The notes under the pieces are model-generated. The model was not told the origin of the DNA and made no database searches. It saw only the letters and a program-made list of their open reading frames with translations. The position numbers and the translations under genes are program-made. A stretch of DNA of 64,000 nucleotides, taken from Rhodovulum bhavnagarense. Its GTDB lineage: Bacteria > Pseudomonadota > Alphaproteobacteria > Rhodobacterales > Rhodobacteraceae. The DNA lies in NCBI RefSeq assembly GCF_004343505.1, contig NZ_SLXU01000003.1:124001-188000 (forward strand), given 5' to 3'. Of this stretch, positions 30,425 to 33,107 are shown piece after piece (the stretch's first letter is position 1; each line of letters opens with the position of its first letter).

Positions 30425-30880
30425 TCAGAAATCCTTGGCGCGGTAGTCGTCATGGCAACCCTTGCAGGTGCCGCCGACCTTTTGCAGGGCCTTGCCCATC
30501 TCTGCCTTGTCGAGACCGGCCACCTCGTTCAGTTCGTTGACCGCCTGGACATAGGCCATGCCCTTTTCACCGACACCGGCCTGGTCTTCCCAGATGGCGG
30601 GCAGGGCGCGGGTCTTGCCGGGCATGTCGGCATTCGAGGTGCCGGGCGCATAAAGGTGGCCGATGTTGTACTGGGTCATGATCTTGAGGTTGCCGGCCAG
30701 GGTCTCTGCGCGGGCACCGTCATACTCGACGTCGCCCTTGGCCATTGCGCTCAGGCCGGCCATGTTGGCGCCCAGCATCTTGTAGTAGCCGCGGCGGGCC
30801 TCGACGAGATCTTCAAGGCCGGCGGCAAAGGCACCGGCCGGGGCGGCGGCGATGAGGGCAGTCAGAAGAACCTTGCGCAT
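30425..30880 (-). CDS. Cytochrome c'-type protein
   Basis: A 151-residue periplasmic protein with a signal peptide (RKVLLTALIAAAPAGAFAAG). It is a four-helix-bundle cytochrome c' with its single heme site, CKGCH, near the C-terminus (VGGTCKGCHDDYRAKDF). Class II cytochromes bind NO or CO at a five-coordinate heme, and roles in NO defence are known for some. The ATG at 30880 has GGAG about six bases upstream. The partner is the b561 gene three bases downstream. Confidence 0.93.
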   Translation of the reverse strand: MRKVLLTALIAAAPAGAFAAGLEDLVEARRGYYKMLGANMAGLSAMAKGDVEYDGARAETLAGNLKIMTQYNIGHLYAPGTSNADMPGKTRALPAIWEDQAGVGEKGMAYVQAVNELNEVAGLDKAEMGKALQKVGGTCKGCHDDYRAKDF

Positions 30881-31048
30881 GAAATGCTCCTTCAGTGCGG
30901 TGTCAATTCGAGGTTGCGATAGCACGCGACAGTTACACGGTCACGTTACGGATTTCCGTCGCCCATATCACGATTTCGTGCCATGGGGTCCAGCGACGCA
31001 CCGGCGGCATCTTGCCGATTTTCGGCGGTTTTCGCTGGCGTGGGTCTC

Positions 31049-31780
31049 TCATGATGTGGGGTCCTGCGCAAGCGCATCTACCGCGCGCAGTTGCACAGAC
31101 TGGGTGCGTCCGGCGCGGGCCGCAGCGACCAGTGCAGCAAAGATCGCGCGCTGTCGGCGCGCATAGACGAGATGCTCGGGGTGCCACTGGACACCCAGGG
31201 CAAAGGGGTCGCGGGTTCGTTCCACCGCCTGGATCATGCCGCCACGGTCATGGGCGGCAATGCACAGGTCGCGGCCCAGCCGGTCGATTGCCTGGGAGTG
31301 CAGGGCATTGACCCTCATCTTGTCGGTCCCCGCGATCGCCGCCAGTCGGGTCCGCGGGCAGACATTCACCTGTTTGCGCGGCAGGATCGTCCAGTGCCGG
31401 TCAGAGCCTGCGTGAACCTCGTAAGCGTTCTGGTGGAGCGTGCCGCCCAGCGCAACGTTGATCATCTGGGCGCCGCGACAGATGCCCAGCACGGGCATGT
31501 CGCGGGCGATTGCGGCCTTTATCAGATCACGTTCCAGCGCGTCGCGGGCCGGGTCCAGGCGGGCGGCGGCGACCATCTGCATCATCCCGTAGAGATGGGG
31601 CGAGATATCGTCGCCGCCGCCGATTACAAGGCCGTCCACGCAGTCAAGATCCGCGTTGCGCCCCGTTCCCCAGCGCACCGCCCGCCCGCCAGCCAGCCAC
31701 AGGTTGAGTGCGACCAAGGGAAAAATGCGCCAGCCCGACCGTTTCGAGGTGGTCACGGCGATCCGGGGTCTGGGGGTCAT
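31049..31780 (-). CDS. Class I glutamine amidotransferase / gamma-glutamyl hydrolase (peptidase C26)
   Basis: A 243-residue PuuD/C26-type enzyme that cleaves gamma-glutamyl bonds. The nucleophile elbow is LGICRGAQMINVALGGTLHQ, and the catalytic His-Glu pair is in GVQWHPEHL. The GGGDDISPHLYG loop is also typical. The ATG at 31780 lies within the stop codon of the amidoligase gene, so the two enzymes are translationally coupled. A ligase paired with a gamma-glutamyl hydrolase suggests making and trimming a glutamyl-linked product; what it is cannot be told from the sequence. Confidence 0.88.
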   Translation of the reverse strand: MTPRPRIAVTTSKRSGWRIFPLVALNLWLAGGRAVRWGTGRNADLDCVDGLVIGGGDDISPHLYGMMQMVAAARLDPARDALERDLIKAAIARDMPVLGICRGAQMINVALGGTLHQNAYEVHAGSDRHWTILPRKQVNVCPRTRLAAIAGTDKMRVNALHSQAIDRLGRDLCIAAHDRGGMIQAVERTRDPFALGVQWHPEHLVYARRQRAIFAALVAAARAGRTQSVQLRAVDALAQDPTS

Positions 31781-32781
31781 GGGCCGGCCCATAGCGCCAG
31801 TTCGTCAAGCCGTGTCTCGACATGGGCCAGCCAGTCGGGACGGGTGCTGATGAATTGGCCGCGATAGTCCAGCCAATCATCGGCCAGCCGGTCCAGATCC
31901 ATGGGTCTGGCTGCCAGCGCCTCGACCATCGCCCAGCGATTCCACTCATACGCGATGCGCCAGCCGATCTCGTCGATGCGGCAATCGGGCAGGCGATAGT
32001 GAAAGGCAGGGCGGGCCGATACCGATCGCGCCTCGTCGCCCAGCGCGGCGCACAGGCGATCCTCGTCGAGGTGGCGCAGGCAGGGCAAAAGGTCCAGCCC
32101 CCTGTTTCGGGTAGGCGTATCGGCCAGGTAGGCCTCTACGAGCGCGTCCAGCGACCAGGTCCGCGCCTCACCCGCCAGCCGGTCGACAAAGCGGCGGGGA
32201 TAGGGCTCGATGAAAGGCATGACGCGGCGCGACGGGTCGATCGGATCGGCATTTCGCAACCAGTCTTCAAGAAGGGCAAAGGCGCGCAATACCGGCAGGA
32301 TCGCCCCTGCCGTTTCATCCGCGATCTCGGGATTGAGGTGCAGCCCGTAGCCAAGAAACATCCCTTTACGGCTGCCTGTGGCGCCGGCTTTGCACAGATG
32401 GCCGCGCAGGTTTTCCAGCTCGGGCATGTCGTCGGGTGCAAGAGGGGGCGTGACGATTTCCACGGGCACCACGGCCCGTGACAGGTCAAGCCCCAGATCG
32501 GCAAGCGCGTTGCCCGCCTTGTCGCGCCAGGCGGTGTCCAGGCATATCCCGATATCGCCCAGCGTCGTGTCCTGCACGCTCAGTTCATGGGCATCTATCT
32601 GGCCGATCCGCCCGCCCAGTGCCGCGACGACCTGTTGGGCTGCCTCTGTCTCGGTCAGCCCTCCGAACTCGATCTCGACGCCGACGCGGCGTGGAAAGCC
32701 TTTTGCGGTCATACGCGGTGACAGGGGCAGGAACCGGTCGCGCGGGACAAGGGCGGTTATGCCATCCATGGGCGGATTCAC
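31777..32781 (-). CDS. Amidoligase-family protein (Amidoligase_2 / GCS2-like fold)
   Basis: A 334-residue protein with the family start GVEIEFGGLTETEAAQQVV, a GYGLHLNPEIADETAGAIL block and a late WRIAYEWNRWAMVEALAA stretch. Members are predicted to form amide bonds like gamma-glutamyl-cysteine or glutamine synthetases, and comparative work has linked them to class I amidotransferase-type partners. I use the GTG at 32781, overlapping the erpA-like stop; an ATG at 32769 is a close alternative. The direct downstream partner is the C26 hydrolase. No peptide substrate is evident nearby. Confidence 0.8.
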   Translation of the reverse strand: MNPPMDGITALVPRDRFLPLSPRMTAKGFPRRVGVEIEFGGLTETEAAQQVVAALGGRIGQIDAHELSVQDTTLGDIGICLDTAWRDKAGNALADLGLDLSRAVVPVEIVTPPLAPDDMPELENLRGHLCKAGATGSRKGMFLGYGLHLNPEIADETAGAILPVLRAFALLEDWLRNADPIDPSRRVMPFIEPYPRRFVDRLAGEARTWSLDALVEAYLADTPTRNRGLDLLPCLRHLDEDRLCAALGDEARSVSARPAFHYRLPDCRIDEIGWRIAYEWNRWAMVEALAARPMDLDRLADDWLDYRGQFISTRPDWLAHVETRLDELALWAGP

Positions 32782-33107
32782 ATTGCGAACGAGGTTCCGC
32801 AGCCGCAGGAACTTGACGCGTTGGGGTTGTCGATGGTGAATCGCGCGCCGATCAGCTCCTCGGAAAAGTCGATCACCGCCGATTGCAGGAAGGGCAGGGA
32901 AACGGGGTCGACCACCACGGTTTCGCCCGCGCCTTGCAGTACCAGGTCGTCCTCGGCCACCTCATCGAGCCGGATATCGTATTGAAACCCCGAGCATCCA
33001 CCGCCCTCGACGGCGATACGAAGCGCCTTGCCCTGGCTGGCGGCCCCGATTTCCTTGAGCCGTTCAAAGGCGCGGTCGGTCACTTTGGGGGGAAGGTTCA
33101 GGTGCAT
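32778..33107 (-). CDS. erpA: A-type iron-sulfur carrier (ErpA/IscA-like)
   Basis: A 109-residue HesB-family protein that delivers Fe-S clusters. The three conserved cysteines are in GGGCSGFQY and SCGCGTSF. The ATG at 33107 gives MHLNLPPKVTDRAF; upstream it is divergent from dgt with an 83-bp gap. Its stop overlaps the amidoligase start, an unusual neighbour for an Fe-S carrier. Confidence 0.9.
   Translation of the reverse strand: MHLNLPPKVTDRAFERLKEIGAASQGKALRIAVEGGGCSGFQYDIRLDEVAEDDLVLQGAGETVVVDPVSLPFLQSAVIDFSEELIGARFTIDNPNASSSCGCGTSFAM

Follow-up and report, generated by a model that had tools for sequence, protein, structure and literature searches.

A carboxylate-amine ligase gene of the Amidoligase_2 type and a peptidase C26 type hydrolase gene, found side by side in Rhodovulum bhavnagarense, form a genuine two-gene module. 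The two genes co-occur in the genomes sampled, the hydrolase is replaced in one clade by a gamma-glutamyl-cyclotransferase-like protein (GGACT type), and in Rhodovulum the pair has been inserted between erpA and a cytochrome c′ gene. The overall reading of this module, considered moderately probable, is that the ligase makes a gamma-glutamyl amide and the C26 hydrolase cleaves it.

Gene arrangement and protein matches

The window, i.e. the whole stretch of 64,000 nucleotides that was analysed, displays the following features.

32778-33107, minus strand: A-type Fe-S carrier (ErpA-like); PF01521, 2.6e-18
31777-32769, minus strand: Amidoligase_2 carboxylate-amine ligase, annotatable from GTG 32781; PF12224, 1e-47; start taken from orthologues
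31777-31780, minus strand: ATGA overlap of the ligase stop and the hydrolase start
31049-31780, minus strand: peptidase C26/class-I GATase-fold hydrolase; PF07722, 9.9e-51; conserved C101, H200 and E202
30425-30925, minus strand: cytochrome c′ gene, which borders the insertion on the other side and is outside the module; PF01322

The Fe-S carrier, ligase and hydrolase genes are present as originally claimed, all on the minus strand and each with a Pfam match (the Pfam scan covered ten proteins of the window). Upstream of the trio are dgt, argS and a SPOR-domain gene, which are divergent, and downstream are the cytochrome c′ and cytochrome b561 genes.

The three genes had been described as joined by two four-base overlaps, and of these the one at 31777-31780 stands. 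The other, at 32778-32781, depends on a GTG start codon that stems from the ATG-TGA end of erpA. Since orthologous ligases begin with MDxIT or a similar sequence, which corresponds to ATG 32769 in the window, the ligase probably starts there, leaving a gap of 8 bases after the erpA stop and no overlap. The same GTG is present in loci L006 and L008, where an ATG preceded by a GGAAAGG-like site comes after it. In the 11 relatives with an adjacent erpA, the homologous ligase start is situated approximately 3 to 240 bases past the erpA stop and is often preceded by GGAAAGG-like sites. With starts as chosen by the analyst, the ligase and C26 genes overlap in 17 of 17 relatives, by exactly 4 bases in 10; in L018, one of the other seven, no start codon stands at the position chosen for the C26. 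The tight coupling of expression originally drawn from two overlaps is plausible, but of the two overlaps one is real and the other probably is not. In Rhodovulum the pair would probably be carried on the erpA transcript.

The name ErpA is a soft one for the carrier of the window, which gives 108.3 bits against the ErpA equivalog NF010147 (cut-off 117) and 107.4 bits against the broader subfamily TIGR00049 (cut-off 58.8).

The ligase gives 163.6 bits with PF12224 (cut-off 22) over model positions 2-244 of 245. Residues E32, E34, H144, N146, R181, R221, D226, R253, H257 and R259 do not vary among 43 sequences, of which nine come from GGACT-type loci. An AlphaFold model of the ligase (pLDDT 90) was compared with known structures by Foldseek. 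The five best matches are to plant glutamate-cysteine ligase or YbdK-type proteins, with E between 9e-3 and 2e-2, and all of the first seven are GCL, YbdK-type or GS entries; these matches are weak, none with E better than 9e-3 or TM above 0.43. A search of solved-structure sequences with the ligase profile gave only two chance matches (E = 0.25 and 0.31), and a search of phage records with the window ligase gave only three matches (E = 6e-3).

The C26 protein gives 173 bits with PF07722 (cut-off 20.5), and C101, H200 and E202, the catalytic Cys-His-Glu residues, are invariant in 14 of 14 sequences. Its best solved relatives are Lin1909, a probable glutamine amidotransferase and PuuD. Against the PuuD equivalog NF008471 it reaches 89.3 bits, under the cut-off of 266.

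Co-occurrence and exchange of the partner gene

An order-wide sample of 292 genomes, drawn evenly, was searched with a ligase profile (E up to 0.001) and a profile of the linked-type C26 (E up to 1e-40), the profile search scoring only a few first-look candidates per genome. The ligase was found in 47 genomes and the C26 in 43, and all 43 are within the 47. By genus, the C26 is found in 25 of 112, all within the 27 genera that have the ligase. Because the genomes share ancestry, Fisher values for this co-occurrence are not probabilities. In 40 of the 43 genomes the two genes are adjacent, in one they are 6.4 kb apart, and in two of one genus (G525 and G641) they are on different contigs. The C26 is also directly downstream of the ligase in 23 of 26 genomes with a ligase match in a class-wide sample (one match weak) and in 20 of 24 in a phylum-wide sample (two weak and partial); the order, class and phylum samples overlap. 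The ligase family is scattered through the Pseudomonadota, as these 24 genomes are out of 398 sampled. The claim that ligase and C26 hydrolase belong together is thus borne out.

Four of the 292 genomes carry the ligase and lack a linked-type C26; three of these belong to the GGACT type, and no partner was found in the fourth (G468). The orphan ligases of G468, G131, G384, G846 and G779 have no linked-type C26 or GGACT gene within approximately 1.4 to 10 kb, and in these genomes PF06094 matches are elsewhere or absent. Plasmid ligases of Azospirillum, Microvirga, Indioceanicola and Rhodovastum (L218-L221) show no annotated C26 or GGACT neighbor within approximately 4 kb, and those of Indioceanicola and Rhodovastum are near transposase or recombinase genes. 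In L132 (6691-14747, genome G672) the 6.4 kb between ligase and C26 holds a PhyR-like gene together with small genes that may be related to stress, as judged from the translations. The ligase-adjacent C26 of a Roseovarius MAG (L086, 10938-11738) aligns with the Pfam model over its final third only and represents a truncation, a frameshift or an assembly error. A ligase on a contig labelled as an Oceanospirillaceae MAG (L043) groups with Pseudooceanicola, the result of either transfer or a mis-binned contig.

Eleven of 80 named loci are without the C26. In ten, a GGACT-type gene immediately precedes the ligase in the same orientation, and the eleventh (L062) ends at a contig edge, where the C26 would be. 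Two of the ten GGACT-type genes were scanned and give 29 bits with PF06094 (cut-off 22.8); the remaining genes were assigned by way of a BLAST cluster that contains all ten. The model of the GGACT-like protein (pLDDT 84) matches AIG2, GGCT and GGACT structures with TM of about 0.5. The E of a DRYE sequence, the putative catalytic glutamate, is invariant in 12 of 12 GGACT-like sequences and aligns with a Glu of 2jqv, a weak match (E = 0.058). The protein displays an N-terminal hydrophobic helix and may face the periplasm, away from the cytosolic ligase. An AP-x-YLPP...NAPP stretch that follows the helix resembles the lipoproteins YifL and LptM (E = 0.47 and 0.63), which may be chance.

In a tree of the ligases, the ten GGACT loci, which belong to Roseibaca, Roseinatronobacter and relatives, form one clade with 100/100 support, the bootstrap being close to its settling mark and not at it. 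The sister group consists of three loci. Two of these, L034 and L037, carry the C26 plus a divergently placed GGACT gene, and the third, L062, shows no GGACT match in 10 kb upstream. The simplest history, read from the two sister loci with both genes, is a passage from C26 alone to both genes to GGACT alone. The swap is a single event in a single clade. Among the 292 genomes, strong GGACT-type matches (E = 2.5e-40 or better) are found in four, all adjoining the ligase, and 19 further genomes show weak matches only (E = 5e-10 or worse). Other PF07722 proteins are encoded elsewhere in 11 of 11 genomes tested, three of the GGACT type included, with weak matches only in G846; loss of the linked C26 therefore need not mean loss of the activity.

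Insertion site and host neighborhoods

The original prediction treated the Fe-S carrier, ligase and hydrolase as one unit, with a gene order to be found in close relatives. The carrier fails as a member of this trio because the gene order is not conserved with respect to erpA. In the genus sample the ligase is carried by 13 of 16 genomes, the window genome counted. Among 17 relatives with the ligase, the C26 comes after it in all 17; erpA comes before it in 11, all of one genus, and in none of the five relatives outside the genus. By tblastn, the window erpA has matches in four of the 80 named loci, all of them Rhodovulum, and the C26 in 69. Empty sites are seen in four of four genus genomes (three without the pair and one with the pair elsewhere), where erpA is directly before the cytochrome c′ gene with a gap of approximately 110-170 bases. 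The erpA gene is the landing site of the pair and probably not its functional partner; the link to Fe-S appears to have arisen by chance at insertion.

Neighbor clustering covered 74 of the 80 named loci, the ligase having been missed by the gene caller in the other six; for the wider class-level loci the nearest genes were read. The common hosts among the 74 are rlmN (28 loci) and a locus encoding an ECF/PhyR-type sigma factor together with a histidine kinase (17 loci), where RlmN and the sigma factor are identified by Pfam and the kinase and PhyR by reading only. A constant third gene was looked for and rejected. The recurrent neighbors RlmN, asparaginase II (13), IalB protein (14), LOG-like (16) and DapD-like (12), the last two labelled by reading, appear to reflect shared synteny within one large clade, with the sigma/PhyR/kinase locus as the other common host.

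An oxidase or aldehyde dehydrogenase is near the ligase in three single loci. The oxidases beside the ligase in L133 and near it in L149 are nearest to L-pipecolate oxidase in NCBIfam, both below cut-off. In L223 (12368-16834; plasmid pSC52_3 of Rhodobacteraceae SC52), the pair is preceded, in the same orientation, by genes for an aldehyde dehydrogenase and for an amino-acid ABC binding protein, with a PQQ methanol/ethanol dehydrogenase nearby, possibly a local context of amine or alcohol oxidation.

A single pathway of ErpA, ligase and hydrolase that requires an Fe-S cluster is extremely unlikely. In its favor, erpA is on the same strand as the ligase with a short gap in Rhodovulum, and rlmN, the common neighbor elsewhere, is another Fe-S gene. 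However, adjacency to erpA is limited to four of the 80 loci and a single genus, the empty sites show erpA without the pair, and little weight is given to rlmN because the third common type of host, the stress-sigma locus, is not an Fe-S gene. Thus a misleading link to Fe-S metabolism is removed from the pair.

An EcfG-type stress-promoter motif, with the consensus GGAAC, 15-18 bases and C/T GTT, is found within 250 bases upstream of 14 of the 80 ligases as compared with 49 of 1400 other genes of the same loci, and 22 of those 49 belong to sigma/PhyR clusters. When 90 patterns were tried, the true EcfG motif ranked first and the best permuted pattern reached four of 80; random 420-base segments contain the motif in 1.7% of cases. 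The 14 motif-bearing ligases are spread over the tree and are not independent, and one motif, that of L021, is inside erpA. By eye, the motif is also upstream of the ligase on pDSHI02 of D. shibae DFL12, a laboratory strain whose ligase is 39% identical to that of the window, and the genes near this ligase are taken, by reading, for stress genes. No EcfG-type motif was found near the module in the window or in the ten GGACT-type operons. It was not seen outside the family of the window: the one of 25 class loci and two of 21 phylum loci that carry it are from G367 and G432, both of that family. The general stress response is a possible physiological handle on the pair.

Proposed chemistry, alternatives and known systems

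The ligase would spend ATP on linking the gamma-carboxyl of glutamate to an amine through its amino group, and the C26 protein would hydrolyse this gamma-glutamyl amide to glutamate and amine, as level control, release or recycling. In the Roseibaca/Roseinatronobacter clade the cyclotransferase-like protein would take the place of the hydrolase. Hydrolases of the C26/PuuD type and cyclotransferases of the GGACT type are unrelated in fold and have in common the cleavage of gamma-glutamyl bonds to amines. Because the two types interchange beside the ligase, a gamma-glutamyl bond is suggested as its product. This shared activity, together with the weak likeness of the ligase model to glutamate-cysteine ligases, points to a gamma-glutamyl amide that is made and unmade. 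The exchange would narrow the chemistry to such an amide, and this one product would be expected to serve as substrate for both of the unrelated enzymes. A ligase that forms a gamma-glutamyl-type bond and a C26 that breaks it, as originally proposed, is the best reading from the co-occurrence, the partner swap and the weak model matches. Points against it are the low strength of those structural matches, a swap confined to one clade with a cut third sister locus, the other PF07722 proteins of the GGACT-type genomes, the ligases that stand alone, and the possible periplasmic placing of the GGACT-like protein.

Alternatively, the C26 could be a glutaminase subunit that hands ammonia from glutamine to a ligase amidating a carboxylate, the two forming an amidotransferase complex. 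The class-I GATase fold of the C26 (PF00117, 5.3e-16), the near-perfect co-occurrence and the overlapping genes are consistent with this. However, the GGACT-type protein found instead in one clade is not expected to supply ammonia, and the swap therefore argues against an ammonia-supplying C26. The C26 is also unlinked in G525 and G641, several ligases stand alone, and the best NCBIfam match of the C26 is gamma-Glu-GABA hydrolase, below cut-off. A glutaminase role is thus unlikely. Also quite unlikely is a reversible isopeptide tag, in which glutamate (or a peptide) would be put on proteins or peptides of the cell wall by the pair and taken off again. Gamma-glutamyl-lysine is a known substrate class of animal GGACT, and a DapD-like gene, presumably (by reading) of the lysine/diaminopimelate route, is found approximately three genes downstream in 12 of the 74 clustered loci. 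Phage amidoligases have been suggested as cell-wall modifiers in the text excerpted from PMC10580990. Against this, the DapD-like gene belongs to the rlmN-associated synteny of one clade, and among the neighbors annotated no wall or substrate-protein gene is seen beside the pair across lineages. Adjustment of gamma-glutamyl tails on a folate or pterin acceptor is very unlikely; the C26 family includes folate gamma-glutamyl hydrolases and the D. shibae pair comes after a dihydroneopterin aldolase gene, but this is one locus only and no folate gene was noticed among the other neighbors read.

The reading of a gamma-glutamyl amide made by the ligase and cleaved by its partner can be extended, tentatively, to a stress-inducible gamma-glutamyl-amine cycle apart from glutathione and Puu. 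Amidoligase_2 would store, detoxify or buffer an amine as its conjugate, the C26 or the cyclotransferase (the latter yielding 5-oxoproline) would free the amine, and in Rhodobacterales the cycle would have come repeatedly under the general-stress sigma factor EcfG.

Amidoligase-GATase neighborhoods are said to have been predicted by Iyer et al. in 2009. The window pair is of the same family and type, with Amidoligase_2 beside a class-I GATase-like hydrolase. It differs from that prediction in that the partner types interchange inside a single bacterial family, where two sister loci have both, and in the Rhodovulum insertion behind erpA. The Pfam text for PF12224 reportedly describes partners of two kinds, glutamine-amidotransferase-like in proteobacteria and an AIG2 cyclotransferase in fungi. 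The excerpted text of PMC10580990 cites Iyer et al. 2009, and excerpts of PMC3890496 and PMC10580990 place the amidoligase family in phages as well. In the LUZ24-like phage UFV-P2, amidoligase, GAT, ATP-grasp and AIG2 genes are near each other (PMC3890496, excerpt). As in this cluster, Amidoligase_2 is near an AIG2/GGCT-like gene in the GGACT clade; unlike the window pair, the phage genes include an ATP-grasp enzyme, and their GAT is of class-II type.

In the PuuA/PuuD route gamma-glutamylation is followed later by C26 hydrolysis, the same order of steps as proposed for the window pair. However, the window C26 is far under the PuuD equivalog (89 versus 266), and no PuuB- or PuuC-like gene is present among the ten window proteins scanned. 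PuuA gamma-glutamylation in the polyamine route is described in the excerpted text of PMC8998196. AtdA1/AtdA2 and NpaA1/NpaA2 each combine a gamma-glutamylanilide synthase with a GAT-like enzyme, and the AtdA2-type enzyme hydrolyses the toxic conjugate and keeps its level proper (PMC11335346, excerpt). The window pair would likewise couple a ligase that gamma-glutamylates an amine at the cost of ATP with a GAT-like hydrolase. The AtdA1/NpaA1-type ligases are glutamine-synthetase-like, whereas the window ligase matches only PF12224, and unlike the AtdA/NpaA systems no dioxygenase gene is present among the ten window proteins scanned.

The suggestion of an undescribed pathway holds in part. No biochemical test of the pair and no tested ligase substrate was found among the literature matches listed, which give the beginnings of abstracts; the pairing itself was reportedly predicted in 2009. 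The pair is a conserved enzyme module of an already predicted kind, and what is added here is the partner swap, the co-occurrence and the EcfG-type motifs before 14 of the 80 ligases.
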